Positions 1 to 63,863 of a stretch of DNA of 64,000 bases are shown one piece after another. Made by a program: the position numbers and the translations under genes. How positions within the stretch are numbered: position 1 is the stretch's first letter; each line of letters opens with the position of its first letter. The notes under the pieces were generated by a model. The model saw only the letters and a program-made list of their open reading frames with translations, searched no databases and was not told the origin of the DNA. The DNA is from Pararhodobacter zhoushanensis. GTDB lineage: Bacteria; Pseudomonadota; Alphaproteobacteria; Rhodobacterales; Rhodobacteraceae. Where the stretch lies: NCBI RefSeq assembly GCF_003990445.1, contig NZ_REEZ01000017.1:35928-99927 (forward strand), given 5' to 3'.

Positions 1-808
1 AGAGCTGGAAGCCGTGCAGGGCTTCGGCCGGGTTCTGGTGCTGGGCGCGCATGAACCAGCGGGGCTCGTACGCGCCGATGGGCAGGATGGCGGCGCGCAG
101 CTTGCCGTGGCGGGCGGAGAGGCTGTCGTAGGGTTTGCCACCGTCAAAGCCGGTGTCCCCGATATGCAGGATCGCCCCCGCTGGCCCCTTGATCACGAAG
201 CTGGCCCAGAGCGCCATGGAGCGGTCGCGGGTGCCGCGCGCCGACCAGTGGTGGCAGGGTTCGAAATCGACGCTGAGCGGGCCGAGCGAGACACTCTCGC
301 CCCAGTCGCCGGTCAGGCAGCGCAGGCCGGTAGGGCGCAGGATGGTGTCATTGCCAAGAGGGGTGATGACCACCGGATCATGCGCGGCCTTGAGGCGTTT
401 GAGGGTGGCGAGGTCGAGGTGGTCGTAATGGTTGTGGCTGAGCAGCACCGCGTCGATGCGCGGCAGATCGTCAAAGCCGATCCCGGGGTCGATGACCCGG
501 CGCGGACCGGCCAGCTGGGTCGGTGAGGCGCGCGGTGACCAGACCGGATCGGTGAGCAGGTTGAGCCCGGCGGTCTGGATGAGCAGGGTGGCGTGGCCGA
601 CCATGGTGATGGTCAGATCGTCTACGGCGGGCTCGGGCCGGGCCGTCGCGGGCGCGGGGAGGCGTTTGGGCCATTTCTGGCGGGTGCCGCCGAACTGCCA
701 GCGCAGCGCATCGCGAATGCCGGTCGGGCCCTGACCCTGCGGGTTGAAAAACCGCGTGCCGTCGAAATGGTCGGTGATCGGGCCGGCGTAATAGGGGTTG
801 CGGGGCAT
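1..808 (-). CDS. MBL-fold metal-dependent hydrolase (partial, C-terminus beyond the window)
   Basis: Reading the minus strand from an ATG at 808 gives an open frame of 269 codons that runs off the left edge. A strong Shine-Dalgarno (AGGAGGGA, complement of 813-820) precedes the start. The translation carries the metallo-beta-lactamase signature SHNHYDHLD and a later HIGDTGFDG stretch supplying further metal ligands. The N-terminus ([22 protein letters not shown]) and the [11 protein letters not shown] region resemble the NAPE-PLD / UlaG-like branch of lipid- or lactone-hydrolysing MBL proteins. By family it is probably a soluble zinc hydrolase; the substrate is unknown. It is divergent from cmk with about 94 bp between the starts. 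Confidence 0.85.
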
Positions 809-902
809 GTGGTCCCTCCTGTTGGTGCTATATTGGGCTGGCACCGGGGGTTTCAACCGCGCAGGGGCTGCGTTAGGCAAATCGAAACGAATGAGGGTGA
901 TG

Positions 903-1487
903 ATGATCTTCACAGTCGCAGTGGATGGCCCGGCGGCGGCGGGCAAGGGAACGATCAGCAAGGCTTTGGCCGACCGCTTCGGGTTGGCGCATCTGGATAC
1001 GGGGCTGTTGTACCGGGCGGTCGGGGCCAAAGGCGGCGATCCGGTGGCGGCGGCGCAGGGCCTGACGCCGGAGGATCTGGCGCGGGATGATTTGCGCAGC
1101 CTCGCGGCGGGCGAAGCGGCGAGCAGGGTCGCGGCCATTCCCGCCGTGCGCGCGGCGCTGACGCAGTTTCAGCGCGACTTCGCCCGGCGTGAGGGCGGGG
1201 CGGTGCTGGACGGGCGCGATATCGGGACGGTGATCTGCCCTGAGGCGGAGGTGAAGCTGTACGTCACCGCCAGTGCCGAGGTGCGGGCGCATCGGCGCTG
1301 GCTGGAGGTGGGCGGCGATGCGGCGCAGGTGTTGGCCGAAGTGGTCGCGCGTGATGAGCGGGATATGGGCCGGGCCGACGCTCCGCTGAGACCGGCAGCC
1401 GATGCGGTGCGGGTTGATACGTCGGCGCTGAGCATCGACGAGGCCGTGGCGCAGGCGGCGACGCTGGTGGCGGCGCGGCTGGGCTGA
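903..1487 (+). CDS. cmk: Cytidylate kinase
   Basis: Phosphorylates CMP and dCMP with ATP in pyrimidine nucleotide synthesis; cytosolic. The N-terminus [13 protein letters not shown] is the P-loop, [13 protein letters not shown] is the conserved CMP-binding segment, and [16 protein letters not shown] matches the lid region. About 194 residues, slightly short for the family. The frame is open further upstream, but homology starts at the cluster of ATGs at 891, 900 and 903; I chose 903 because it sits directly before the P-loop strand. The stop overlaps the start of the next gene (TGATG). Family assignment is secure; the exact start is not. Confidence 0.93.
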
Positions 1488-1930
1488 TGGGAGGGTGGAC
1501 CGCGCGGTGCCTGTGCGGGGAGGTGCGCGTGACGGCGCTGGGCGAGCCTGTGCGCGTGGGGATCTGCCATTGCCTCGATTGCCGCCGGCATCACGGGACG
1601 CTGTTTTTCGCGGCGGCGATCTTTGCGCAGGCGGCGGTGACGGTCGCTGGAGAGACCAAGTCCTATGAGGGGCGGCATTTCTGTCCGCGCTGCGGCTCGT
1701 CGGTGTTTGCGCAAAGCGGCGATGAGATCGACCTTCATCTGGGCGCGATGGAGGCGGCTGAGTCCTTGGTGCCGCAGTATGAGCTTTGGACTGTGCGTCG
1801 GTTACCATGGTTGCCGGAGTTTCCGGACATGGTTCAGATACCGCGGAACCGGGAAAGCCCTGATAGCGTAGAGGGTTGGCGAGAGATCGAAGATGAGAGC
1901 GGTTTGGATGGACGCGGTTTGAGCGGCTGA
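1487..1930 (+). CDS. GFA-family (CENP-V/GFA domain) zinc protein
   Basis: A 147-residue protein with the two Cys pairs of the GFA fold: CLCGEVR near the N-terminus, CHCLDCRR about 20 residues later, and CPRCGSSVF in the middle, a typical zinc-binding pattern. The family is named after glutathione-dependent formaldehyde-activating enzyme, but most members have no proven activity. Homology appears to end near the segment PDMVQIPRNRE; the last roughly 28 residues look like read-through into sequence that was once non-coding. Its ATG overlaps the cmk stop, so it is probably cotranscribed and translationally coupled with cmk. Confidence 0.85.
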   Translation: MGGWTARCLCGEVRVTALGEPVRVGICHCLDCRRHHGTLFFAAAIFAQAAVTVAGETKSYEGRHFCPRCGSSVFAQSGDEIDLHLGAMEAAESLVPQYELWTVRRLPWLPEFPDMVQIPRNRESPDSVEGWREIEDESGLDGRGLSG

Positions 1931-2231
1931 CGCTTAGGCGGGGCAGCAGGGCGCGGAGGTTCCGGCGGGTTGAGAACGGCGGGCTGCCTGTCGGCACGTT
2001 CAAGGTTGCACGACGCAGCGATCCTGCCCGGCCCCGGTTGCGTGACCCGCTGCGACGGCCGCGGCACTGGCTGTGCCCCCGGTGTTCGCCGGCAAAACGA
2101 TGGGACGCGACGGCGGGGAACTCGATCGGCACCTGACACGTTCTCTGAGGCAAGACCCTGCTGTCGCCGAGCTTTCCCTTGCCCCCCAATGCAGGCTATA
2201 GCGGTGCAAGCGCCAGCCCACAGGAGACCCG
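1931..2231. other. Non-coding gap before psd
   Basis: About 300 bases between the GFA-family gene and psd. Open frames crossing it on both strands have no recognisable protein features. The last 15 bases carry the psd ribosome binding site (AGGAGACCC). I found no convincing terminator, RNA gene or repeat. Confidence 0.5.
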
Positions 2232-50931: not shown

Positions 50932-51268
50932 GGAAGTTGCAGCCTCAAAAAGAATTGGTGGTGTGCCCGAGTGATCCGAAGAGAGCCTTATCCGATGCAC
51001 TCAGAGAACTAAGTGTCTGAGCGGTGGAAGAAATCAGACGAAATTTGCAGATGTTCGGTCGCGTTCGCCGGCGCGCGTGGTGATGGGTCGGCCGTTGAGG
51101 GGTGTCCGTGAACGGTGCCGGGCCCTTCGAACGCAATTGTCGCTGGTTTTGCCCAAAAAGTAGCCTCCTGAACATGCCGGTCAGAAACTGGGTGTCTGTC
51201 CCATCGTGTCGTTCCTCAGCGCCTTGCGGTCCCGATCATTGCAGGATCTTGGGGCGGTCAGACGCATC
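50932..51268. other. Non-coding gap between fcl and manC
   Basis: 337 bases, noticeably more AT-rich near manC than the surrounding genes, so probably the manC-manB promoter region. I found no convincing hairpin terminator, promoter consensus or small gene. Confidence 0.45.
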
Positions 51269-52243
51269 TTACTTGTCCCGGATGCTACCAGAATCCTGCT
51301 CAAGGAACCACTGATACGTCCCGGCGATCCCCTCGTCCAAGCCGACCCGCGCGCGCCAGCCCATATCGGCAAGACGGCTGACATCCATCAATTTGCGCAT
51401 GGTGCCGTCGGGCTTGCTTGGATCGGTGTCGATCCGGCCCTTGAACCCGGTCGCCGCCGCCACGGTTTGCGCCAGTTCAAGGATCGTCACATCGGTGCCC
51501 GAGCCGACATTGATATGGCTCAGCATCGGCTGTGTGTTCGCGGCGTAAACGTCTTGCGGCAGGTCGAGCACAAAAAGGCTGGCTTCGGCCATGTCGTCGA
51601 CATGCAGGAATTCGCGCATCGGTTTGCCCGAGCCCCAGATCGTCACCACCTCGGTCCCGGCCTGTGCGGCTTCGTGGAAGCGGCGGATCAGGGCGGGCAG
51701 GACGTGGCTGTTCTGCGGGTGGAAATTATCGCCCGGTCCGTACAGGTTGGTCGGCATTACCGACCGGTAATCGGTGCCATGCTGGCGGTTGTAGCTTTCG
51801 CACAGCTTGATCCCGGCAATCTTGGCGATGGCGTAGGGCTCGTTGGTGGGTTCGAGAACGCCGGTCAGCAGCGCATCCTCCCGCATGGGCTGCGGCACGG
51901 CCCGGGGGTAGATGCACGATGAGCCCAGTTGCAGCAGACGCGTGACCCCGGCAGCAAAAGCCTGATGGATCACGTTGCACTCGATCATCAGGTTTTGGTA
52001 AATGAAATCAGCGGGGTAGGTGTTGTTGGCCATGATCCCGCCAACCTTGGCGGCGGCCAGGATCACCACGTCGGGCCGCTCGGCCTGCATGAAGTCGCGC
52101 ACGGCAGGCTGGTCGGTCAGGTCAAGTTCTGAAGACGTGCGGGTGATCAGCGTCAGATCCTCACCTGCCTCCTGCCGTGCCTTCAACCGACGCAAAATCG
52201 CGCCGCCAACCATGCCTCGATGTCCGGCGATGTAGATTTTCAC
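51269..52243 (-). CDS. fcl: GDP-L-fucose synthase
   Basis: Epimerase-reductase that turns GDP-4-keto-6-deoxymannose (made by Gmd) into GDP-L-fucose. SDR motifs: [41 protein letters not shown], and YAIAKIAG with catalytic Tyr and Lys. 324 residues. The start is GTG at 52243, overlapping the stop of the upstream hypothetical gene (GTGA), which implies translational coupling. Confidence 0.95.
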
Positions 52244-52812
52244 GAAGTTTCCTGTCCTGCTGGCTTGCTCCCGGGCATGTCGCTGGCTGAGCGTGTACGC
52301 GGGGCGATCTTGTTGGATGCATTCTCAAGGATCTGATCCCAGACTGCCTCAGATGTGACATTGGCGGTCGCATAATCGGCAAATCGATCGATCCGGGCGA
52401 TGTGTAAATTGTCGCCATAGGCTTCGACGGTCCCCGGCAGAAGATTGCCTTTGTCAGTCACATAGAGAAGCTGCGCGCCTCCCCGCCTGGACACCAGATC
52501 GGCAAGGGTCTGAAGCTCTGCCTTGGGCAGCTCCTGGCGACCCTTGTAGACAAAGATCATATCCGGGTTCTGCAGCTGTTCTTCCAGACATTGCCGCAGA
52601 TGCGACACCTTGTGGATCTCTTTTGAGTAGACCGCTTTGTGATCCTCTATGAAGACACTGTCGCGGACCTTGTCTGTGTGAAACCGGACACCCGTACCCC
52701 GGTCCAGCAACATCTTGGGACTGGTCGGTTCCAGATTTTCGGACAGATGGCGCGCCATGACAAACCCGAACTCGCAGTTGTCGCTTAAGCTCTCAAAACG
52801 GGCAATATCCAT
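52240..52812 (-). CDS. Conserved protein of the polysaccharide island (CEFG-motif family), short form
   Basis: 190 residues starting [17 protein letters not shown], the N-terminal signature of a family common in Rhodobacterales surface-glycan loci (ESLGxNCEFGxVQRxxG), function unknown. Family members usually continue with an LLRWA-type stretch of about 50 residues; here the sequence passes directly to [15 protein letters not shown] and then a normal C-terminal part ([36 protein letters not shown]). It may be an internal deletion or a short subfamily. The base composition is lower in GC than in fcl. Coupled to fcl by overlapping stop and start. Confidence 0.7.
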
Positions 52813-52950
52813 TGGAATTCGCTATCCTTTTATCTTTACGACAAGACATCTGAGGTCACGATTTCCTTCTGCAACGACCTTCAGTTCTGAAAAGTCCCTC
52901 AGATGCTCTTGGGTTAACCGAGCACCGGAGGGACAATAGCTTTCAGGACC

Positions 52951-54075
52951 TCAGTTTTCCACCGATACCGGCAGATCCATGCCATGTGCCTTGAGAAGCG
53001 CGTGGCGTTTGGCGGTTTTGAGGTCTTCGGCGACCATCTCGGCGCACATTTCCTGAGCAGTGATCTCAGGAACCCAGCCCAATGTTTCCTTGGCTTTGGT
53101 CGGATCGCCCAGCAGGGTTTCCACTTCGGCCGGGCGGAAATAGCGCGGGTCGATGCGGACCAGCACATCGCCGGGTTTCACGGCCGGAGCCTTGTCGCCG
53201 GTGACCGACACCACGGTTGCTGTCTCGTCAACATCCGTGCCGGTAAAGGCCAGTTCGATGCCCAGCTCGCGGGCCGACCAGGTGATGAACTCGCGCACCG
53301 AATACTGCACGCCGGTCGCGATGACGAAGTCGTCCGGCGCGTCCTGCTGCAGCATCATCCATTGCATCCGGACATAGTCCTTGGCGTGCCCCCAGTCGCG
53401 CAAGCTGTCGATGTTGCCCATATACAGGCAGTTCTCGAGGCCCTGCGCGATATTGGCCAGACCACGGGTGATCTTGCGCGTCACGAAGGTCTCGCCGCGG
53501 CGCGGGCTTTCGTGGTTAAAGAGGATGCCGTTGCACGCATACATGCCATAGGCCTCGCGGTAGTTTACCGTGATCCAGTAGGCGTACATCTTGGCCACAG
53601 CATAGGGGCTGCGCGGGTGGAACGGCGTCGTCTCGCGCTGCGGGATTTCCTGCACCAGCCCGTAGAGTTCCGAGGTCGAGGCCTGATAGAACCGGCAGGT
53701 TTTCTCCAGCCCCAGAAAGCGGATGGCTTCGAGCAGGCGCAGCGTGCCGATGCCGTCGACATCGGCGGTGTATTCGGGGGCTTCAAAGCTGACCGCGACG
53801 TGGCTCTGGGCGCCGAGGTTATACACCTCGTCCGGCTTCACCTCGGACAGGATGCGCGTCAGGTTCGAGGTGTCGGTCAGGTCGCCGTAGTGCAGCTTGA
53901 ACCGTGCGTTGTCGATGTGCGGGTCTTGGTAAATGTGGTCGACACGCTGGGTGTTGAACAGAGAAGCCCGGCGCTTGATGCCGTGAACTTCATAGCCTTT
54001 TTCAAGAAGAAATTCGGCCAGATATGAACCGTCCTGGCCGGTGATGCCGGTGATAAGCGCTTTTTTGACTGTCAT
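52951..54075 (-). CDS. gmd: GDP-mannose 4,6-dehydratase
   Basis: Makes GDP-4-keto-6-deoxy-D-mannose from GDP-mannose, the first committed step to GDP-L-fucose. SDR motifs: [42 protein letters not shown], and [19 protein letters not shown]. 374 residues from ATG 54075 (AGGAAA upstream). Product goes to Fcl, two genes downstream. Confidence 0.96.
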
Positions 54076-54384
54076 TTTCCTACGCAACCTTGAGGCGGGC
54101 GAACATGAAATTTTTCGCTTTGCGCCGTTTTACAGGTGGGGTGCTGCATGTGCAACAAAGGATGGGATCGGCTGGAAATCCTATATTGAAGCTAAATACT
54201 GGCGTCTTTTGCAGCCCGTTTGGCCGCATGACGCTGCGGGGATGCAGGTGCAGCAATCGTGGCGCGGAACGAGGGTCAGTGCAACCGCGAAGTGGCGGTG
54301 CGCGGCCTCCCGGATCGGCCGGGCCGACCCGGTCCGCACCTGCCGTCCCGGTGGGCGTTCCGGCCACCTTTTTGCGCATCGCAC
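54076..54384. other. Non-coding gap upstream of gmd
   Basis: 309 bases with no supported gene. The half next to gmd is AT-richer than the rest and probably holds the gmd promoter. No clear terminator for the upstream glycosyltransferase gene was found. Confidence 0.45.
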
Positions 54385-55311
54385 TCAAAAATCTATCCCG
54401 CTGCGTTCCAGCGTTCGCCACGGTCGCGCCAGACGCTGTGCGACCTCGGAGAACGAGCTCCATTCGCTTGCCAGAAAATGTGGCGCGGCGGTCAGAAGGA
54501 TCAGATCGGCCAGCGCATACTGCATTTGCTGTGGCGAACGATCGAACCGCTCGCGTCGCAAGAACCGCACCCGCGTGCCGTAGCGTTGGTGTAGTGCGCC
54601 ATAGGTTGCGGCCAGATCGGCGGCGACAAACACGCTGAGGTCGGGCTTGATGATCAGCATCCGGTCAAGCCGCGTGATGAAACGGCTGACATCGCTTTTC
54701 CGCCGCCATGCGACCAGTTCGGCGTGACGGCTTTGTGGCCAGTTGTCGGGGGCTTCATAGGGCAGATGGTCGAATTCCGGGCCGGTGCCCATGCGGATAT
54801 GTGCAGCAACATCGACCGGATGATCAACGCGTGCGACCAGCGCGCGCACCTCGGGCGAGGGGCGCAGCGCGCGCAGGAAGCGGTTTTCCGCCTGAATCGT
54901 CCGGTGGGGGCTGTGCAGCGTATAGGCGGAACGCACATAGACATCGCCATCGTCGGGCCAGTCGCGGGCATTCAACACCTCGCGGAACTGCGAGCCGGGT
55001 TCGATTTCCATGTAGTTGTAAACCCGGGCAGCCCGTTCGCGCATCAGCGCGCCCGCTTCGCCGTCGATGACGGTGCCGTCATAGGCGAGCAGATCGTGCA
55101 AGGTCGCTTTGCAATGCTCGTCACGGTGCCAGACGGTGACCAGATCGCGCCCGGTGTTGTGCGCAATGACCGCGCCCGAGGCGAGCGCGCGCAGCCGGTT
55201 GCAAAGCCCATGCTGGGCGTCAAGGTACAGGCGGGGCCGACGTCGTCGCACAAGAGACGGTGCGCCCGGTCTCTTGGGGCCACCGTCAGGGGGGGATGCC
55301 GAACGACGCAC
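54385..55311 (-). CDS. Putative fucosyltransferase (GT-B, NodZ/GT23-like)
   Basis: 308 residues, GTG start at 55311. The N-terminal YLDAQHGLCNRLRALASGAVIAHNTGRDLVTVW is the acceptor/donor loop pattern seen in NodZ- and O-fucosyltransferase-like enzymes. AAHIRMGTG matches the HxRxG donor-binding motif, and the C-terminal ADLILLTAAPHFLASEWSSFSEVAQRL matches the conserved Ser-rich segment. The neighbours gmd and fcl make GDP-L-fucose, the donor expected for such an enzyme. Function is inferred from motif and context; no signal peptide or membrane segment seen. Confidence 0.7.
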   Translation of the reverse strand: MRRSASPPDGGPKRPGAPSLVRRRRPRLYLDAQHGLCNRLRALASGAVIAHNTGRDLVTVWHRDEHCKATLHDLLAYDGTVIDGEAGALMRERAARVYNYMEIEPGSQFREVLNARDWPDDGDVYVRSAYTLHSPHRTIQAENRFLRALRPSPEVRALVARVDHPVDVAAHIRMGTGPEFDHLPYEAPDNWPQSRHAELVAWRRKSDVSRFITRLDRMLIIKPDLSVFVAADLAATYGALHQRYGTRVRFLRRERFDRSPQQMQYALADLILLTAAPHFLASEWSSFSEVAQRLARPWRTLERSGIDF

Positions 55312-55317
55312 CGGCGA

Positions 55318-56634
55318 TCAGCCTTTTGCGCCGGGCGATTTCGGCCCGAGATGATGGCGTGCGGCCCGCGCCAACCCCGTCACCCGCCACGAGGCCGAGC
55401 CGTAGACGCGCGTCAGCTCGTCGCTCAGCTCGCGGCGTTGGAGGCGCAGACGGTCACGTTCGGCCTGCGCTGCCGCAAGCGCATCGGCACTGGCCTGAGC
55501 GGTGGCTGAATCGGCAAGGAGCTGCGCGGAGAGCAGCGCGATCTTGCGCCGTTCGCTGTCATGCGCTTCGGTCAGCGCACGCTCGAGCGCCTCGTTCGTA
55601 GCCTTGAGCATCAGCCGATCAGCCAACCGGTCCGTCAACGTGGCGATCCGGGCGCGGTGACGCGCGGCATCGGCCTCCATCTGCTGGTCCTGCTCGGCGT
55701 GCTGCGCCAGCTCTTTTCGGTGCTGCGTCAGGGCTTTTTCCAGCGCAGTTACCTTGGCGCGGGCTTGGTCGGTGTCGCGGCTTGCTTGCACGAGGGCCGT
55801 TTCAAGCTGCACCAGTTGTTGGGTCAGCAGGTCCGACTGCGCCAGTGCATCGCCAAGCGCACGGGTCTTGCCGTCAAGGTCTGCAGCGCTCTGTCGTTGT
55901 GCCTCGCGCGCTTTTTCCAGCGCGGCCCGCTGCCCGGCGCTGTCTTTCTTCAACTGCCCGATCTCTGACCGGGCGTGGTCGTGGCTGTCCCGAATGTGGC
56001 GGTCGGCTTCGGTCTGCTGTGCGACGGTTGCCTGCAAGTGCCGGAACTGCGCCTCAAGCGCGCGCCGCTGGGTCAGCGCGCTGATCACGGTATTCAGGGT
56101 ATCGGTGGGGGCAGCGGGGGCCAGTGTGCCGGCCGAGAGCTCTTCGATCAGCGCCGTCACCGTCTCGTCGCTTTGCAGCAGGGCTTGGGCTGCAACGCGA
56201 TAAATCGCATCCGGCAGGGCAGGCGGGTCGATCGCAGGTGCCGCAACGGGGCCATCATGGCCACAGCGCCGCGCGATCTCGGACCACAGTGCGGTGGCAT
56301 CGGGTTGTGTCAGACTGCTCAGATCGATCAGCGTCAGTCGCCGACGTGCCTTGCGCAGATGCGCGGCCAGATCGCGGCGCGTGGCCAGCCAGTTCTGATA
56401 GGCCTGTGCCGTGTCTTGGTGTTCGCCGAGCGCCAGCGCCAGACTGTCCAGCGGGTTCAGGGTAACAACAAGCACCGGACCGTCACCGTCGAGCAACCCG
56501 TCAAGCGAAGGCGCTTGCCGCGTTCCCGGTCCAAGCGCGTCGCAAATGCGGGTCAGGGTGGCACGTCCCGGCGTATCCAGGAAGAAAACCGCCGGTTGCG
56601 CCGATGTCGGCGTGTCGCTGCGTGTCCGTTTCAT
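55318..56634 (-). CDS. Large coiled-coil protein of the polysaccharide island
   Basis: About 438 residues. Residues ~1-170 look globular (VFFLDTPGRATLTRICDALG; VLVVTLNPLDSLAL; RRLTLIDLSSLTQPDATALWSEIARRCG), possibly sulfotransferase- or nucleotide-fold-like but not assignable. Residues ~190-400 are a long coiled coil rich in Ala, Gln, Arg and Leu. The end, VYGSASWRVTGLARAARHHLG, is the tail seen in many Rhodobacterales glycosyltransferase-associated proteins. The gene ends 6 bp before the putative fucosyltransferase start. ATG 56634 was preferred; TTG 56664 is possible, neither with a good ribosome site. Confidence 0.7.
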   Translation of the reverse strand: MKRTRSDTPTSAQPAVFFLDTPGRATLTRICDALGPGTRQAPSLDGLLDGDGPVLVVTLNPLDSLALALGEHQDTAQAYQNWLATRRDLAAHLRKARRRLTLIDLSSLTQPDATALWSEIARRCGHDGPVAAPAIDPPALPDAIYRVAAQALLQSDETVTALIEELSAGTLAPAAPTDTLNTVISALTQRRALEAQFRHLQATVAQQTEADRHIRDSHDHARSEIGQLKKDSAGQRAALEKAREAQRQSAADLDGKTRALGDALAQSDLLTQQLVQLETALVQASRDTDQARAKVTALEKALTQHRKELAQHAEQDQQMEADAARHRARIATLTDRLADRLMLKATNEALERALTEAHDSERRKIALLSAQLLADSATAQASADALAAAQAERDRLRLQRRELSDELTRVYGSASWRVTGLARAARHHLGPKSPGAKG

Positions 56635-56730
56635 CCAGAGATCAAGGTACCAAAATTCTGACAATCATATCTTGAAACACATCCGACTCGCTTAATCCAG
56701 CCACGAAGCCGTGCGGCTGAGGTGGCAGTG

Positions 56731-57477
56731 TCAGGCCTCGCTGGAAAGGGTATAGGGTACGCTCGCCAACCCGCGGCTTGCCGGAATGCAAAACAGCCGC
56801 ATGGCGCGCAGATGCAGTGAGAAATCGGCGGCTGGCAGGTCGAAGGCAAGGGTGTGATACCCCTCGTTCCCGCAGATCGCGTCGAAGGGCGCCAGCGTGT
56901 GAAACGCTGCTGTCACGCGGTTCTCGGTGTTCAGGCGCAAGGGTTCCAGCCATGGCGTGTCTTCCGTCCCCCACGAGGTCGCGCTGCGCAGAAAGAGCGC
57001 GACGTCCGTTGTCTGATCCATGCTGCCTTCGACCAGCAGACACAGCACGTCTCCGACCTGCAGCGTCGTGGAACCAAGATCGAAATTGAGCGTCAACCAG
57101 CGCGGTGCCCCGGTCACGGCACCGGCAATCTGCACAAGCTCGTCTCGGGCGCTTGTCGCAGTCAGGGTGACCTGCGCAGCCTCATTGTCCCAGCTGGGAT
57201 AGATTTTCGGTGTGAACTGAGCGTCATTCACCAACGTCTCGCTCAGCTCTGCCGCGCGCAGGGCGGCCAGCGGGCCGCGCGTGAAGACGTCGAAAATGTC
57301 GGACACGGTGACCTCACCTGTGAGCGGTCGGATGAGTTGGACACTATCAGCCCGGGGCGCGGCGTACACGCTCTTTTGGTCTGCGTGGCGGGCCCTTGGC
57401 GGCTGCGCGCCGATGGGTGGGGCGGTCAGAGCGGGCAGGGTGACACGAACTGGCCCCGGGCACGGGGTCGCTGTCAA
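56731..57477 (-). CDS. Hypothetical protein, beta-rich
   Basis: Unrecognised. The reliable part is the last ~190 residues (SDIFDVFTRGPLAALRAAELS to SVPYTLSSEA). It looks beta-sandwich-like: alternating hydrophobic strands such as WLTLNFDLGSTTLQVGDVLCLLVEGS and YHTLAFDLPAADFSLHLRAMRLFCI. The start is uncertain: TTG 57477 gives 248 residues, and GTG codons further in give shorter products. It lies at the upstream edge of the polysaccharide island, about 97 bp before the coiled-coil gene, and is divergent from the stressosome operon. Confidence 0.55.
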   Translation of the reverse strand: MTATPCPGPVRVTLPALTAPPIGAQPPRARHADQKSVYAAPRADSVQLIRPLTGEVTVSDIFDVFTRGPLAALRAAELSETLVNDAQFTPKIYPSWDNEAAQVTLTATSARDELVQIAGAVTGAPRWLTLNFDLGSTTLQVGDVLCLLVEGSMDQTTDVALFLRSATSWGTEDTPWLEPLRLNTENRVTAAFHTLAPFDAICGNEGYHTLAFDLPAADFSLHLRAMRLFCIPASRGLASVPYTLSSEA

Positions 57478-57563
57478 AACCTGACCGGAATTAAGCGGGT
57501 GTTCATGAACGGCGTCTAAACTCTGTGCGTGAACCGAGGCTTTCGGCAAAGACAGGTAAGCAG

Positions 57564-58478
57564 ATGAATGAACTCCTCTCCGGGTCTCACAGGGCTCACC
57601 GCAGCAGCGCGACAAGCAACGCCACCCATGATGCGTTGGCGTGGTTCGATCTGGGGCAGGTCGACCGGGATCAGGCAGCAAGGCTCGGTCCGATCAGCGA
57701 TCAGGTGGCCGACCAGATCATTGAGGAATTCTATGCCCATATTCTGCGCTTTGACCACGCAGCACAGAAATTCTCGTCCAAAGATCAGATCGATCAGGTG
57801 AAGGCGGGGCAGAAAAAGTACTTCACTGACCTGATCTCGGCCGAACTTGACGACGCCTACGTTGCCGACCGTCGCCGCATCGGCGGAATCCATGAGGTGG
57901 CGGGGATCACCCCCACACTCTATATCGGCTCTTACGCCTATTACTTGCACCGGCTGGGCACCCTGATCGGCGACATGATGGCCGAAGATCCGGCAACGGC
58001 CTTCCGGCTGTTCCTGTCGCTGGCCAAGATCGCTCATTTCGACATGGCGCTGGCGCTCGAAAGCTATGTCGAGACGCGCGAAGCAACGATCGAGCGGCAA
58101 CAACGCCAGATGAGCGAACTGCCCACGCCGGTGCTCAAACTCAAGCCGGGGCTGCTGTTGATCCCCGTCGTCGGGATGCTGGACAGATCACGGGCGCGCA
58201 GTCTGACCGTGTCGCTGCTTGAAGGTATACGCCAGTTCCATGCCCGCGCGGTGGTGCTCGACATTACCGGGGTGGCCGACGTGGACAGCTCGGTGGCCAA
58301 CCACCTGATCCAGTCCATGCAGGCCGCGCGGTTGATGGGCGCGCGCTCGATCCTGACCGGGGTGTCGTCAGATGTGGCGCAATCCTTGGTCAAGATTGGC
58401 GTGACGGGGGCTGATCTGAACACCGCCGGCGATCTGGAATCCGGCATTATCGCAGCCGAAGCGATCCTGGTGAGGTAG
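57564..58478 (+). CDS. rsbR: RsbR-type stressosome sensor (globin domain + STAS)
   Basis: 304 residues. The N-terminal ~165 residues are a sensor-globin domain; RIGGIHEVAGITPTLYIGSYAYYL keeps a His (His110) at the usual proximal heme position. The C-terminal STAS domain (residues ~188-304: LLLIPVVGMLDRSRARSL; VVLDITGVADVDSSVANHL) has Ser242 where RsbR proteins carry a phospho-accepting Ser/Thr. In known stressosomes RsbR and RsbS form a large shell that holds RsbT until signalled. AGGTAAG precedes ATG 57564. It leads rsbS-rsbT-rsbX and two histidine kinase genes. Confidence 0.9.
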   Translation: MNELLSGSHRAHRSSATSNATHDALAWFDLGQVDRDQAARLGPISDQVADQIIEEFYAHILRFDHAAQKFSSKDQIDQVKAGQKKYFTDLISAELDDAYVADRRRIGGIHEVAGITPTLYIGSYAYYLHRLGTLIGDMMAEDPATAFRLFLSLAKIAHFDMALALESYVETREATIERQQRQMSELPTPVLKLKPGLLLIPVVGMLDRSRARSLTVSLLEGIRQFHARAVVLDITGVADVDSSVANHLIQSMQAARLMGARSILTGVSSDVAQSLVKIGVTGADLNTAGDLESGIIAAEAILVR

Positions 58479-58481
58479 AAC

Positions 58482-58844
58482 ATGACCATCCGTGTGCCGG
58501 TTTTGCAGCAAGGAAAGGTGCTGATCGTGTCGGTGCAGGATGCGCTGTCAGACAGCGACCTGCTGAATGTGCAACAGGACCTTCTGGACAAGGTGTTTTC
58601 GGTCAACGCCACAGGGGTCGTCATCGACGTGAGCGCGTTGGACGTGCTCGACAGTTTTGGCACGCGGACCTTGTCCGATATTGCCGCCGCGATCCAGTTG
58701 CGCGGGGCAAAGACCGTGATCGTCGGCATTCAGGCCGATGTCGCCATGTCCATGGTGCTCTTGGGGTTGTCGCTGCCGAGGGTGGCCACTGCGCTGGACC
58801 TTGAGGCGGGCATGGCGTTGCTGGGCCAAAGGCATGTCGCATGA
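58482..58844 (+). CDS. rsbS: RsbS-type STAS scaffold protein
   Basis: 120-residue single STAS domain. GVVIDVSALDVLDSFGTRTL carries the phospho-acceptor Ser58 in the family DSF motif, followed by VIVGIQADVAMSMVLLGL. RsbS proteins co-assemble with RsbR and bind RsbT until phosphorylated by it. It starts 3 bp after rsbR and overlaps rsbT by 4 bp (ATGA). Confidence 0.93.
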   Translation: MTIRVPVLQQGKVLIVSVQDALSDSDLLNVQQDLLDKVFSVNATGVVIDVSALDVLDSFGTRTLSDIAAAIQLRGAKTVIVGIQADVAMSMVLLGLSLPRVATALDLEAGMALLGQRHVA

Positions 58845-59257
58845 GCACGGTAGAAAGCGATATCGTCATGGCCTGTCAGATCACGTCCGATGCCGATGTC
58901 GTCTCGGCCCGCCAACGGGGGCGCACGGTCGCTGCCGATATGGGCTTCAGCCGACCGGATCAGGCGCTGATCGCCACCTCCATTTCCGAGCTGGCGCGCA
59001 ACATCGTCAACTACGCCAAAACCGGAACAATCGAACTGTCGCTGGTGGACCGCGGCCGCAAGCGTGGCTTGCAGGTCGTCGCCAATGACAACGGGCCGGG
59101 GATCGAAAACCTCGAAGCCGCCATGACTGACGGGTTTTCGACCACCAGATCACTGGGGCTTGGTCTGCCGGGGACGCGGCGGATGGTCGATGACTTCCAT
59201 ATCGTCTCGGAGCCGGGCAAAGGCGTCAGGGTGACGGTTGTCAAATGGTTGCATTGA
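58841..59257 (+). CDS. rsbT: RsbT-type serine/threonine kinase
   Basis: 138 residues of the GHKL anti-sigma/switch kinase type. N-box SISELARNIVNYAKTG, G1 box VVANDNGPGI, and the RsbT-typical STTRSLGLGLPGTRRMVDDF. RsbT phosphorylates RsbS and RsbR, leaves the stressosome and activates a partner through an RsbU-like N-terminal domain; such a domain is in the histidine kinase encoded two genes downstream. 13-bp overlap with rsbX. Confidence 0.94.
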   Translation: MSTVESDIVMACQITSDADVVSARQRGRTVAADMGFSRPDQALIATSISELARNIVNYAKTGTIELSLVDRGRKRGLQVVANDNGPGIENLEAAMTDGFSTTRSLGLGLPGTRRMVDDFHIVSEPGKGVRVTVVKWLH

Positions 59258-59886
59258 ACGCCGGGGGCGACATCAAGCTTGCCGGCTGTGGTTTGATGCT
59301 CAGCTGGGCGGTGATGGCCATCGCCAGGAAAACTTATGAGCCCAGCGGTGACGGCTATGGCATCTGGCGACAACCGGATGGTCTGTTGGTCGCCGTCGCC
59401 GATGGCTCGGGGAGTGGGCAAAAGGCGGCCGAGACAACCGATCTGTGTCTGAAAACGCTGGAAGCATCGACCGGGCATCTGGACGCGGATTTTCAGCGTT
59501 GCCATCAGGCTCTCAAACGCGGCCGCGGCGCCGCGCTGGCCTTGATCAGGATCAATGATGAGACGGGCATGATGACATGGGCCGCGGTGGGCGATGTTGA
59601 CGGCACGCTGTTTGCTCACACGGCTGGCCGTCGGACACCGGCAGGCGGGCTTACCCGGATCGGTGGCACGCTGGGTCTCACCTTCAACGGAGCTGCGCCG
59701 CAATCGCAGTTGCTCAGGCCCGGTTCTCTGATCGTGCTGACAACCGACGGGGTGCGGCGTGAGTTCGCGCAGGACATTGCCCCCGACCTGACGGCCGCAG
59801 CGGCCGCCGAGCAGATCCTGCACGCGTTCCGCCGCCCCGACGATGATTCCCTCGTTCTGGCGATCGAACTGCGGGCCCTGCAATGA
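59245..59886 (+). CDS. rsbX: RsbX-type PP2C phosphatase
   Basis: 213 residues of the SpoIIE/RsbX phosphatase fold. Metal-binding aspartates lie in VAVADGSGSGQKA, AAVGDVDGTLF and LTTDGVRREF. RsbX resets the stressosome by dephosphorylating RsbS and RsbR. Nothing suggests an extra sensory domain. Its start lies inside rsbT, and its stop overlaps the next gene by 4 bp, so five genes from rsbR to the kinase are tightly packed. Confidence 0.88.
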   Translation: MVALNAGGDIKLAGCGLMLSWAVMAIARKTYEPSGDGYGIWRQPDGLLVAVADGSGSGQKAAETTDLCLKTLEASTGHLDADFQRCHQALKRGRGAALALIRINDETGMMTWAAVGDVDGTLFAHTAGRRTPAGGLTRIGGTLGLTFNGAAPQSQLLRPGSLIVLTTDGVRREFAQDIAPDLTAAAAAEQILHAFRRPDDDSLVLAIELRALQ

Positions 59887-61088
59887 CAAAGTCACAGCCC
59901 CCACACGAGGCCTTTGCGGACGCGACCGACCCGGCGCGCCTCGATCCAACAGGTGCCGAGCCGCAGGCCATTGCCCGGCGGTATGAGGAGGCGTTGCGCG
60001 GGTGCGTTGAAGAGGACAGCGAAGCCGGGCTGATGGCAGCCTATTCGCTGGCGCGTGAAGCCCTGCCACTGGATATCCAGCTAACGGAAATCATGGACAT
60101 ACATTTCGCGGCCTCCCAGGCGCTTCTTGTCGACCACGGTCACTCACAACAATGCCGCGACCAGATCGAGAGTTTCGTGGTCGAATTTCTGTCAGTGTAT
60201 GACATGGCCCTGAAAGGGTACAAAACGAGCGTCCCACGATTGCTGCAAGAGGTCGCCGACCGCCAGAAGGCAGAGGCCGAATTGCGACAGGCGTCGGCAC
60301 AACTGGCCGCCCAGCGAGATACGCTCGACAAGCTCGTCGCCGACCGTACGCGCGATTTGTTGAAAAAAACTGAAGTTCTGGACAAGACTTTGGACCATTT
60401 GCGGCAGGCAAACCGTGAGCAGGCCGAGTTCACCTATGCGATCTCCCACGATCTGAAATCGCCCTCCAACACCATCACCATGCTCTCGGATGAACTGGAA
60501 ATTTCCTTGAGCGAGCGCCTGGATGCGGATGCGGCAGAACTCTTGTCGCTGATCCGCATGACGTCTGTGCGGATGGGCAGGCTGGTCGATGACGTTCTGG
60601 CGTATTCGCGTTGCCTCGATCATCAAGCGCCTCTGGCGCGGGTCGATGTTAACAAAGTCCTGCGCGATATACTTGAAGATCTGCGTTTCGACATCATCCG
60701 GTCGGAGGCGACAGTCACTGTAGCCGACGTTCCGTCGATCATTGGCGACCCGATGCAGGTCAAGCTTTTGTTTCAGAACCTGATTTCAAACGCGATAAAG
60801 TATCGCTCTCCCGGTCGGCCGCCACGCGTCCTGATCACGGCAAAGATTCAGCCCACGCAAGTCAGGGTGACGGTCAGTGACAATGGCATCGGCATAGCCC
60901 CGCAACATTTCGAGCGGATCTTTACCCTGTTTCAGCGCCTGCATACCTATGACGCCTATCCGGGAAGCGGCATCGGGCTTGCCCTGTGCAAGCGAATTGC
61001 AGCCAACCTAGGCGGCGAACTCAGTCTTACGTCGCGACAGGGTGTCGGAAGTTCCTTTTCGATAGCCTTGAAAAGATGGGTGGAATAA
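59883..61088 (+). CDS. Histidine kinase with RsbU-like N-terminal domain
   Basis: 401 residues, no transmembrane segment. Residues ~30-113 (IARRYEEALRGCVEEDSEAGLMAAYSLAREALPLDIQLTEIMDIH) resemble the RsbT-binding N-terminal domain of RsbU. A coiled coil (~114-185) leads to the HisKA domain with His189 in YAISHDLKSPSNT, then HATPase boxes NLISNAIKYRSPG, SDNGIGIAPQHFERIF and GSGIGLALCKRIA. In Bacillus the same N-terminal domain sits on a phosphatase; here it is on a kinase, so RsbT would be expected to switch a phosphorelay. Confidence 0.88.
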   Translation: MTKSQPPHEAFADATDPARLDPTGAEPQAIARRYEEALRGCVEEDSEAGLMAAYSLAREALPLDIQLTEIMDIHFAASQALLVDHGHSQQCRDQIESFVVEFLSVYDMALKGYKTSVPRLLQEVADRQKAEAELRQASAQLAAQRDTLDKLVADRTRDLLKKTEVLDKTLDHLRQANREQAEFTYAISHDLKSPSNTITMLSDELEISLSERLDADAAELLSLIRMTSVRMGRLVDDVLAYSRCLDHQAPLARVDVNKVLRDILEDLRFDIIRSEATVTVADVPSIIGDPMQVKLLFQNLISNAIKYRSPGRPPRVLITAKIQPTQVRVTVSDNGIGIAPQHFERIFTLFQRLHTYDAYPGSGIGLALCKRIAANLGGELSLTSRQGVGSSFSIALKRWVE

Positions 61089-61198
61089 GCCAGCGGCTTA
61101 ATCGAACCGCTGCGCGCTTCAAGCGCATCGTTCCTGGTAATGGTTTCATAACACTTTCCAGCGTATACCGGGACGAAAGCTTGAATAAGGTTTCGACC

Positions 61199-61945
61199 GT
61201 GCACAGCAAATCGAGCGTCAGTTATGGGGCAGGGCCGCCCGCAAATGAGAGCGGCGACTTCGATGACTTCGTCTATGTGATCAGCCATGACCTGCGCAAT
61301 TCCATCCGCGCTTTGATCGAGGTGCCGCAATGGATCGCTGAGGATCTCGAAGCTGCCGGACACAGCGTTGAAGGCACGCTCGGCGAAAATCTGGATCTTC
61401 TGAATGCGCACGCAAGGCGGTTGGATCAGATGCTTCACGATCTCTTGGTCTATTCGCGCATCGGTCGAGGGCAAGAAATCTGCAAAAATGATCTGGCGGC
61501 AGCGATTGCCACTGTCTGTTCCGAACAGAAAATTCCGCCGGACGTGCGGATGGACGTTGTCTTGAAGACGCCGACAATAGTCATGCGCGACGGTGACCTT
61601 TTAACCTTGCTGGGCGCCTTGCTATCCAACGCCCTGCGCCACCGCGACGCTGACATGCGCCATATCACGATCGGTTCCCGCGCAGAGGGGGGCGGAACCG
61701 TTCTGTCGTTTCGCGACGATGGTCCCGGCGTTCGGCCTGAGTTCCGCGAAAAAATCTTTCAGGTAATGACAACATTAAAGTCGCGCGATGAGGTGGAGGG
61801 CAGCGGCATGGGCTTGGCGCATGTCCAGAAGATTTTGAAAGTCCATGGCGGTCGCCTTGCCTGGGTCGATCAGCCGGACGGGCGTGGTGTGGGTTTCGAA
61901 CTGTGGTTTTCGGACACGGGTTGCGAAGAAGCGCCGCGAATTTGA
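61199..61945 (+). CDS. Second histidine kinase, no sensor domain
   Basis: 248 residues from a GTG at 61199 (AAGG 8 bases upstream); the frame stays open upstream to 60986, inside the previous gene, but the extra sequence is not domain-like. His30 lies in YVISHDLRNSIRALIE, followed by dimerisation helices, LLSNALRHRDADMRH, RDDGPGVRPEFREKIF and EGSGMGLAHVQKIL. There is no obvious input domain or membrane anchor, so it must be controlled by protein contacts or act as a phosphotransfer partner. Confidence 0.85.
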   Translation: MHSKSSVSYGAGPPANESGDFDDFVYVISHDLRNSIRALIEVPQWIAEDLEAAGHSVEGTLGENLDLLNAHARRLDQMLHDLLVYSRIGRGQEICKNDLAAAIATVCSEQKIPPDVRMDVVLKTPTIVMRDGDLLTLLGALLSNALRHRDADMRHITIGSRAEGGGTVLSFRDDGPGVRPEFREKIFQVMTTLKSRDEVEGSGMGLAHVQKILKVHGGRLAWVDQPDGRGVGFELWFSDTGCEEAPRI

Positions 61946-61963
61946 GGAAAACCTGTCGGATCG

Positions 61964-62041
61964 ATGGATGAAGATACGCGGCAGTCGGCGGACTTCTTTA
62001 CGGTTCTTAAGGACATTTTGCACAGACTCGAGGCGAAGTAA
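61964..62041 (+). CDS. Possible 25-residue peptide
   Basis: ATG 61964 to TAA 62041 encodes MDEDTRQSADFFTVLKDILH... ending RLEAK, an amphipathic helix-like peptide, between the second kinase and the response regulator. A GAGGAAA lies about 13 bases upstream, somewhat far. It may be chance or the remnant of a longer regulator gene. Confidence 0.2.
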   Translation: MDEDTRQSADFFTVLKDILHRLEAK

Positions 62042-62062
62042 GAGCGAGAGGGAGCAATCAAC

Positions 62063-62728
62063 GTGGCGCCAAAATCACCTGAATTCTCCTCTGCTAACCT
62101 GGCAAAGCTACCCGAAATCCGCACACTTGTGCTGGACGACAGCAGTTTTGATCGCAAACGCATCTGCCGAATGGGAAATGGCCTCGACTTTAAGCTGCGC
62201 ATCGAAGAGGCGGCCTCGGTTGCTGGCTTGAAGGAGTGTTTAGATCGGCAGAATTTTGACCTGTTTCTCATTGACTACAAGATGCCAGAATCGGATGGAC
62301 TTGCTGCGCTTGACGTAATTCGCAGCCACAAGAACCAGTCAGAGGCCGTTTCCATCATGATATCGGGGCAGGCCGATCAACGCATCGCCGTGAGTGCGAT
62401 GAAAAGCGGATGCCAGGATTTCATTCTGAAATCAGATATTTCACCAGACTACTTGCGGGGGACCGTCCTTTCTGCACTAAGGGGCTTGCGCCAGTTCTCT
62501 CAATACTTTGGTGACCCAAAACCCGTTTTGAATCTGGAGGAGATTCGAAGTTTCATGCAGATCGCGCTTGAAGATACATATGTTCGCTCAATCTTGCGGG
62601 AGACACTTCAGGAAGGCCTGCGCGACGCTGTGCGCGCCATTGGCGTGAACTTCGGTCTGCCCCCTGGTGCGGATATGACTCAGTTTTTGCTCGATTCCGA
62701 ACAACCAGACAGTTTTCTGTTTCGGTAA
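62063..62728 (+). CDS. Response regulator with novel C-terminal domain
   Basis: 221 residues, GTG start after GAGGGAGC. Residues ~20-140 are a receiver domain: acidic pair Asp25-Asp26, phospho-acceptor Asp71 in LFLIDYKMPESDG, Ser101 and Lys123 in FILKSD. The C-terminal ~80 residues (LNLEEIRSFMQIALEDTYVRSILRETLQEGLRDAVRAIG) are helical, with no helix-turn-helix or known enzyme motif. It probably receives phosphate from the kinases just upstream and acts by protein contact. Confidence 0.87.
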   Translation: MAPKSPEFSSANLAKLPEIRTLVLDDSSFDRKRICRMGNGLDFKLRIEEAASVAGLKECLDRQNFDLFLIDYKMPESDGLAALDVIRSHKNQSEAVSIMISGQADQRIAVSAMKSGCQDFILKSDISPDYLRGTVLSALRGLRQFSQYFGDPKPVLNLEEIRSFMQIALEDTYVRSILRETLQEGLRDAVRAIGVNFGLPPGADMTQFLLDSEQPDSFLFR

Positions 62729-62906
62729 GGGAGAAAGGAAGTTTTTTCGAATTGTCGATCTAAGTGTTTAGTCCCGGCATCTGGTGGATCGGGTTTAGGA
62801 TGAATCTATCTGTCTCTGATGTCCAGATTTTGCAGATGTATTCGTAGGGCGTGAGGCCGTTCAGCGTCTTCAGCCTGCTTGCGAAGTTGTAGGTGAGGAG
62901 GGAACA

Positions 62907-62931
62907 GGCGACAGTCCTGTGGACTGTTGCC
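62907..62931. repeat. Palindrome inserted in the transposase 3' part
   Basis: GGCGACAGTCC-TGT-GGACTGTTGCC, an 11-bp stem with one G-T pair, inside an apparent ~44-bp insertion that shifts the transposase frame. Confidence 0.65.
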
Positions 62932-63738
62932 CCCGACGCAAGTTGATGTCGGCAAGGTGTGTGCGGAGCTGGTCGTGGCTGTCATAGTGGAATCGCTTGA
63001 CGGTTGTGTCCTTGATCGTGCGGTTCATCCGCTCGACCTAGCCGTTGGTCCAAGGATGGTTGGGCTTGGTCAGGCGGTGCTCGATGCCGTTGGCCTCACA
63101 GATCATGTCGAAGCGCATCGGCCGGGAGGTAATGGTGTTGCGGTTCCGCAGCTGCTCTGCGAACTGAATACCGTTATCGGTGAGAATGGTGTGGACCTAA
63201 TAGAGCACGGCCTCGAGCATGTGCTGCAGGAACTCCCAGGCCGACTTTCTGTCAGCTGTAGCAACGAGTTGAGTGACGACGAAATTGGACGTCCGGTCGA
63301 TGCCGACGAACAGGTAGAGCTTGCCTTCGGCGGTCTGCACCTCAGCAATATCGATGTGGAGGAAGCCTATCGGGTAGCGCCTGAACTTCTGGCGCTTGCG
63401 CTTGTCACCTTCCACGTCCGGCAATCGTGAGATCCCATGACGCTGAAGGCAACGGTGCAGTGCAGACCGCGTCAGATGCGGTATCGACGGTTGCAGGGCA
63501 TAGAGGCAGTCGTCCAGCGGCAGCAGCGTTTGGCGCCGGAACGCGACGACCACCGCCTCCTCGGCTTGCGTCAGCACCGTTGAGCGCGGTTCCGTCGGCC
63601 CGGTCTTCATATCCTCGACTGTCACGCGCTTGCGCCACTTCGCAACCGTCTTGGGATTGATGCCCAATTCCCGGCTCGGCTGCGCGAGCGAAGCTTGCGA
63701 TCGCTGTATTGCTGCTCGGCCAGCGTGCGTGCCCTCTC

Positions 63739-63766
63739 GGCAGATTTGCCTTGCAAATCGCCTGCC
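63739..63766. repeat. Palindrome inserted in the transposase 5' part
   Basis: GGCAG-ATTTGC-CTT-GCAAAT-CGC-CTGCC, an 11-bp stem with a 3-base bulge, inside an apparent ~45-bp insertion near the transposase N-terminus. Confidence 0.6.
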
Positions 63767-63863
63767 GGGTAACAGTGCGTGGCGCAGCCGTGACGAACTT
63801 GTCCCTTGTTGCTTCCTTCCATTCCTGAGAAGGGATCGCACCATCAAACCGTGGGATCAGACA

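Follow-up and report, generated by a model that had tools for sequence, protein, structure and literature searches.

A globin-type stressosome operon with an RsbU_N-bearing histidine kinase and a further kinase–receiver pair in Pararhodobacter zhoushanensis

In a 64,000-nucleotide stretch of the genome of the alphaproteobacterium Pararhodobacter zhoushanensis (contig NZ_REEZ01000017.1; hereafter, the window), we identified a seven-gene operon which is, with high confidence, a globin-type stressosome adjoined by a histidine kinase carrying an RsbU_N domain (HK1). Downstream lie a second histidine kinase (HK2) and a response regulator (RR), and it is probable, at a clearly lower level of confidence, that RsbT regulates HK1 and that HK1, with HK2, regulates RR. 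The wiring of a stressosome to a kinase is of a known kind, because it is already described or proposed in the excerpts available of Heinz et al. 2022 (PMC9237108) and of an eLife 2025 paper (PMC12143880); the operon is another member of this kind with an extra kinase–receiver pair. The fresh point here is that HK2 and RR resemble, in sequence, a pair recurring in the Rhodobacteraceae. The operon provides a compact test case for stressosome control of a histidine kinase via RsbU_N, a step proposed in print, and points to an RR-type receiver family with matches in 45 of the 295 family genomes searched (E 1e-12). Its features are as follows.

57564–58478, forward strand: rsbR, protoglobin sensor plus STAS (Pfam Protoglobin 115.4 bits, STAS 45.3 bits)
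58482–58844, forward strand: rsbS, one STAS domain (Pfam STAS 45.7 bits)
58841–59257, forward strand: rsbT, GHKL-type switch kinase (Pfam HATPase_c 43.5 bits)
59245–59886, forward strand: rsbX, single-domain PP2C (SpoIIE-type) phosphatase (Pfam SpoIIE 35.3 bits)
59883–61088, forward strand: HK1, RsbU_N, long helical linker, HisKA (His189), and HATPase_c (RsbU_N 27.8, HisKA 31.5, HATPase_c 86.6 bits)
59979–60209, forward strand: RsbU_N domain of HK1 (PF08673 31.1 bits, E 1.1e-6, genome search)
61076–61945, forward strand: HK2, second histidine kinase, His71 counted from the 61076 start (HisKA 28.0, HATPase_c 60.2 bits, scanned from 60986)
62063–62728, forward strand: RR, receiver (Asp71) with a C-terminal extension of ~90 residues (Response_reg 52.0 bits)

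An earlier reading of the window, made from the sequence only, had placed rsbR, rsbS, rsbT, and rsbX in order with overlapping ends. The order and coordinates stood, except that rsbR and rsbS are separated by a gap of 3 bp; by the coordinates of the open reading frames (ORFs), rsbS and rsbT overlap by 4 bp, rsbT and rsbX by 13 bp, and rsbX and HK1 by 4 bp. HK2 likely starts at 61076, overlapping the end of HK1, where the mechanical ORF opens at 60986. The R-S-T-X order with a single-domain PP2C RsbX, as recognized by Pfam, is that of a globin-type RsbRSTX stressosome. Neither the ORF calls nor Pfam revealed an RsbU phosphatase, RsbV, RsbW, or sigma factor among the operon genes, and the operon is not of the SigB type. 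This agrees with the sequence-only reading, which had seen no RsbV, RsbW, or SigB-type gene, and an RsbV/RsbW-like pair is instead located on another contig (C34). No sigma-factor output was called beside the operon; the contig stops at the window end, so that genes farther downstream are out of view. Between RR and the contig end (window 62760–63850, reverse strand), there is sequence resembling a broken transposase gene.

RsbR had been correctly named, but its protoglobin sensor domain had been overlooked. Residues 23–294 matched the Vibrio vulnificus RsbR chain 7o0i_B in a search of PDB sequences (E 1.4e-34), and Tyr57 and His110 aligned with residues of the same type in that chain; we read them as the probable distal Tyr and proximal His of haem sensor globins. 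In V. brasiliensis, the proximal His and distal Tyr are the haem and ligand residues, and the RsbT kinase is active when RsbR is in the unliganded Fe(II) state (PMC4976288, in the excerpts available). Given the aligned residues and these roles, haem binding by RsbR is likely, and a protoglobin with haem-type His and Tyr points to a globin (O2-type) stressosome, as in Vibrio. In an alignment, RsbT was 63% identical to one RsbT from the same family and 57% identical to another; it returned zero rows against PDB sequences at E 0.001. The serine of the RsbS D-S-F motif is residue 58, which we take to be the phosphorylation site, and RsbT retains Arg24, Arg28, and Asp97, presumably equivalent to R19, R23, and D92 of the B. 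subtilis protein. A search of viral contigs found zero RsbT relatives, and plasmid records gave 18 matches, the top one at 51% identity and none named Rhodobacteraceae.

The predicted link between the stressosome and a two-component output is HK1. Its residues 33–109 matched Pfam RsbU_N (PF08673) above the cut-off of 25.5 bits, scoring 27.8 bits when the protein was scanned and 31.1 bits when the whole genome was searched; nowhere else in those 4.8 Mb did a match reach E ≤ 0.001. The profile search thus confirmed the earlier claim that a kinase within 4 bp of rsbX resembles RsbU over its first ~110 residues. When the N-terminal 122 residues were compared with PDB sequences, the sole row up to E 10 was B. 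subtilis RsbU (2j6z), at a weak E of 1.2. The AlphaFold model of residues 1–181 consisted of a helical bundle and one long helix (mean predicted local distance difference test [pLDDT] 89); this structure prediction had been suggested earlier as a check, but helical bundles resemble too many folds for the comparison to prove kinship with RsbU_N. HK1 E47, at least 90% conserved across 12 RsbU_N proteins, aligned with RsbU position 24, which is an RsbT-binding residue (PMC12143880, in the excerpts available). The N, G1, and G2 motifs were all found in the kinase part, and the residues expected of a two-component system were present throughout (HK1 His189, HK2 His71, RR Asp71, and the kinase motifs). 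Since HK1 carries RsbU_N, signalling from RsbT to the kinase is the natural reading, as had been proposed, and we infer that RsbT binds HK1.

In the mechanism that we propose, a globin-type stressosome, haem-containing and probably O2- or redox-sensing, would have a two-component output. The RsbR and RsbS core would hold RsbT; when the ligand state of the RsbR globin changed, RsbT would phosphorylate RsbR and RsbS and then depart, and RsbX would reset the core. Free RsbT would bind HK1 at its RsbU_N domain and linker and, via the coiled coil, alter the activity of the kinase, by either activation or inhibition. HK1 and HK2 would set the phosphorylation of RR by phosphotransfer, and RR would act on its target through protein contact, not DNA binding.

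Wiring of this kind has been published. In the excerpts available, Heinz et al. 2022 report HisKA/REC outputs for globin RSTX modules, for example in Ruegeria, and RsbU_N-like domains on some of the proteins encoded downstream in alpha-, beta-, and gammaproteobacteria; they interpret RsbU_N as marking a direct target of RsbT (PMC9237108). The eLife 2025 paper, in the excerpts likewise available, reports RsbU_N histidine kinases in rsbT operons and proposes that RsbT activates proteins with the RsbU N-terminal domain via the linker, with experimental testing credited there solely to a Moorella GGDEF case (PMC12143880). Our operon shares with the globin RsbRSTX modules of Vibrio and other Gram-negatives the protoglobin–STAS RsbR, the R-S-T-X order, and the signalling genes directly downstream (PMC9237108, PMC4976288), and with the Ruegeria module, as compared by its text description, the HisKA/REC outputs. 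In V. vulnificus, mutants of the RSTX module and of the downstream kinase were alike in phenotype (PMC10014275); its downstream proteins are described in these excerpts as having no detected RsbU_N and a predicted action through cyclic di-GMP (PMC9237108, PMC10014275), whereas in our operon RsbU_N is present on HK1 and no enzyme domain was recognized in the receiver. The RsbU_N kinases in rsbT operons also have RsbU_N and a linker joined to a histidine kinase, although the modelled example in the eLife excerpts is the gammaproteobacterial kinase NreB, whereas HK1 is of the HisKA type (PF00512). The B. subtilis SigB operon (RsbRST-U-V-W-SigB-X) has RsbT and an RsbU_N target in common with ours, but its target is a PP2C phosphatase, whereas the predicted target here is a kinase and RsbX precedes it; furthermore, RsbV, RsbW, and a sigma factor are lacking from our operon, and RsbR appears to be a haem-type globin. 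A literature search combining stressosome and Rhodobacteraceae matched no paper, although Heinz et al. 2022 name Ruegeria (PMC9237108).

The distribution of the components was also examined. RsbT relatives with ≥60% identity occurred in four of 394 family genomes, including the present one, and nine further genomes had weaker matches (~34–41%) alone. RsbU_N was found in five of 295 family genomes (four above the Pfam cut-off) and in three of 289 class genomes, each count including the present genome. The operon had been considered unusual for an alphaproteobacterium; it is indeed rare, but the wiring itself had already been published (PMC9237108, PMC12143880, in the excerpts available). A pattern scan of GTDB species contigs starting from three RsbTs, and hence biased toward these queries, yielded 71 loci (two of which, L020 and L026, belong to genomes G250 and G226 already in the family set). 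An RsbU_N ORF, called by a home-made profile, was present in 62 of them, comprising 19 kinases, six PP2C proteins, one HD-GYP-like protein (by eye), and 36 without a recognized output. By the labels in the records, Actinomycetota accounted for all six PP2C loci and 34 of the 36 no-output loci, the other two being a broken copy (L019) and a degenerate kinase-like protein (L026); outside the Actinomycetota, 19 of the 22 RsbU_N genes in this sample were kinases. Eleven of the 19 kinases (L027, L032, L033, L036, L038, L059, L060, L061, L069, L073, and L082) were scanned with Pfam, and both domains were present in all eleven, with RsbU_N slightly under the cut-off in L032, L036, and L060.

In terms of the last two proteins, Pfam recognized HisKA and HATPase_c but no sensor domain in HK2, and Response_reg was the only domain detected in RR at E 0.1, in line with the second kinase and the regulator lacking a DNA-binding domain noted in the sequence-only reading. 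The AlphaFold model of RR, based on three sequences, had a mean pLDDT of 67, with a better receiver and a C-terminal part mostly <60 containing low-confidence helices. A motif in the RR C-terminal tail (acidic-x-F/L-x-F/L near the end) was rejected as a family hallmark, being present in only eight of 35 relatives of 180–300 residues. To our knowledge, the RR receiver family has no known target. The phosphorelay proposed in the sequence-only reading gains no support from the operon itself but may still operate. In the seven operon proteins, to which the search for phosphotransfer proteins in this genome was confined, Pfam found neither an Hpt domain nor a hybrid receiver, and a single receiver served by both kinases would fit the operon equally well.

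HK2 and RR homologues were then compared across 295 family genomes (E ≤ 1e-25 and E ≤ 1e-12, respectively, with the best 9–10 candidates scored per genome). HK2 homologues were found in 44 genomes, some of the matches being long kinases unlike HK2, and RR homologues in 45, many covering the receiver part alone. Both occurred together in 41 genomes, with approximately seven expected by chance, and lay ≤2.5 kb apart in 37 of the 41; an RsbU_N match accompanied them in three (G000, G246, and G250). These data bear on the unlikely but strongest alternative, in which HK1 alone belongs to the stressosome and HK2–RR is an independent pair that lies downstream by chance and answers another signal. It is favoured by the 38 genomes with both homologues and no RsbU_N match, by G250, in which the stressosome is on contig C3 and the HK2–RR pair on contig C8, and by the G+C content, which declines along the operon from 61–64% in rsbRSTX to 57.5% in HK1, 56.4% in HK2, and 51.5% in RR (mean 65.1%, standard deviation 3.1, in 700-base steps over window 1–57000). 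However, HK2 overlaps the end of HK1, and the HK1–HK2–RR arrangement recurs: besides the window, it was found in G246 (L017), where the HK1 frame is broken and the contig ends just upstream, leaving rsbRSTX out of view; in Mangrovicoccus HB161399 (L021), where RR has the opposite orientation; and in a broken syntenic copy (L019). G246 had no row in the RsbT family survey, its inclusion in that survey's draw being uncertain. L019, labelled Novosphingobium sp. MW5, aligned with window 51036–62738 (~11.7 kb) at 83–93% identity, showing numerous gaps and disrupted genes, and its contig ends ~10 bases past the RR stop; it probably represents a close relative whose assembly is mislabelled or of poor quality.

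Taken together, the family-wide pairing, a tree, and the falling G+C suggest that HK2–RR was added to the operon. When 37 HK2-like kinases were placed in a quick tree, the three stressosome-linked HK2s, including that of G246, where rsbRSTX is out of view, occupied three separate positions, and starred, well-supported branches forced at least two changes, with long branches for L146 and L021; a single clade of the three was not rejected at 0.05 (approximately unbiased test, p = 0.0586). Tentatively, the pair may have been captured more than once. Among 11 fetched regions (10 for HK2–RR pairs and G188 for HK2 alone), a HAMP kinase was located beside the pair in L186 and L190 and a PAS kinase in L192. 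The ORF listing of these regions was G+C-filtered and missed several known HK2/RR genes, and it was therefore used for neighbours only. We regard it as possible, with rather less than even confidence, that a pre-existing sensor-less HK2–RR pair, which elsewhere can also adjoin HAMP or PAS kinases, was repeatedly drawn into O2-sensing stressosome operons of this family via an RsbU_N kinase; if so, one receiver would integrate the stressosome O2 signal with other cell inputs. HK1 was followed by other partners at some loci, namely a small CheY-like receiver in L014/L020 and L022 and a 155-residue receiver in L015, and in Poseidonocella (L025) HK1 was accompanied by an RR homologue encoded on the other strand, with no HK2 found. 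A GroEL-like gene was seen by eye within ~5 kb of an HK2-type kinase in L190, L193, and L196, possibly marking a conserved location.

The genome encodes further stress switches. The contrast drawn earlier between the stressosome and a PhyR–NepR–EcfG response does not hold as an either/or, because NepR was detected on contig C23 (46.8 bits, family model), adjoined by PhyR-like, EcfG-like, and kinase ORFs by eye. Contig C34 carries the RsbV/RsbW-like pair (L006 and L018; STAS 60.4 bits, HATPase_c_2 79.4 bits) and a PP2C protein (L098; SpoIIE 137.1 bits) with a REC-like N-terminus by eye. NepR and the RsbV/W-like pair coexist with the stressosome in this genome. The genes on C34 recall RbaVWY of Rhodobacter capsulatus, likewise an alphaproteobacterial Rsb-type switch, in which RbaV, RbaW, and the REC-PP2C protein RbaY share one pathway, with rbaVW and rbaY lying apart; the available excerpts of that paper describe no stressosome genes (PMC3999984), and the RbaVWY-like genes here are unlinked to the operon. 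With such components present, HK1 and HK2 might feed the unlinked RbaY-like protein and, through it, the RsbV/RsbW-like pair as a hidden partner switch. We find this improbable, given the lack of linkage, the presence of RR as the obvious partner in the operon, and the RbaVWY homologues reported in other Rhodobacterales (PMC3999984, same excerpts), whereas the stressosome is rare. The L098 protein (850–2124, forward strand) stands beside a small Hpt-looking protein (368–694, reverse strand; by eye), which possibly helps to feed RbaY-like phosphatases.

Finally, it is very improbable that RsbT acts on HK1 as a Ser/Thr protein kinase rather than by binding RsbU_N, as Heinz et al. 2022 suggest for downstream sensor kinases without RsbU_N, because HK1 has this domain, their sign of direct RsbT targeting (PMC9237108, in the excerpts available).

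Several observations concern RsbU_N proteins elsewhere. In the 34 Actinomycetota no-output loci, RsbU_N often formed ORFs of ~95–130 residues (e.g., L043:9684–9974, L046:9699–10097, and L076:9702–9995) and was terminal in longer ORFs; an RsbS-like ORF was seen upstream by eye in five of six loci inspected. The short ORFs are perhaps free RsbT-binding proteins. In Mangrovicoccus algicola (L026:9007–9999), Pfam detected RsbU_N only (22.6 bits, under the cut-off) and the kinase part looked degenerate; this protein is perhaps a pseudokinase output. In a betaproteobacterial metagenome-assembled genome, a second RsbT-like protein (L028:10050–10481) immediately follows the RsbU_N kinase.

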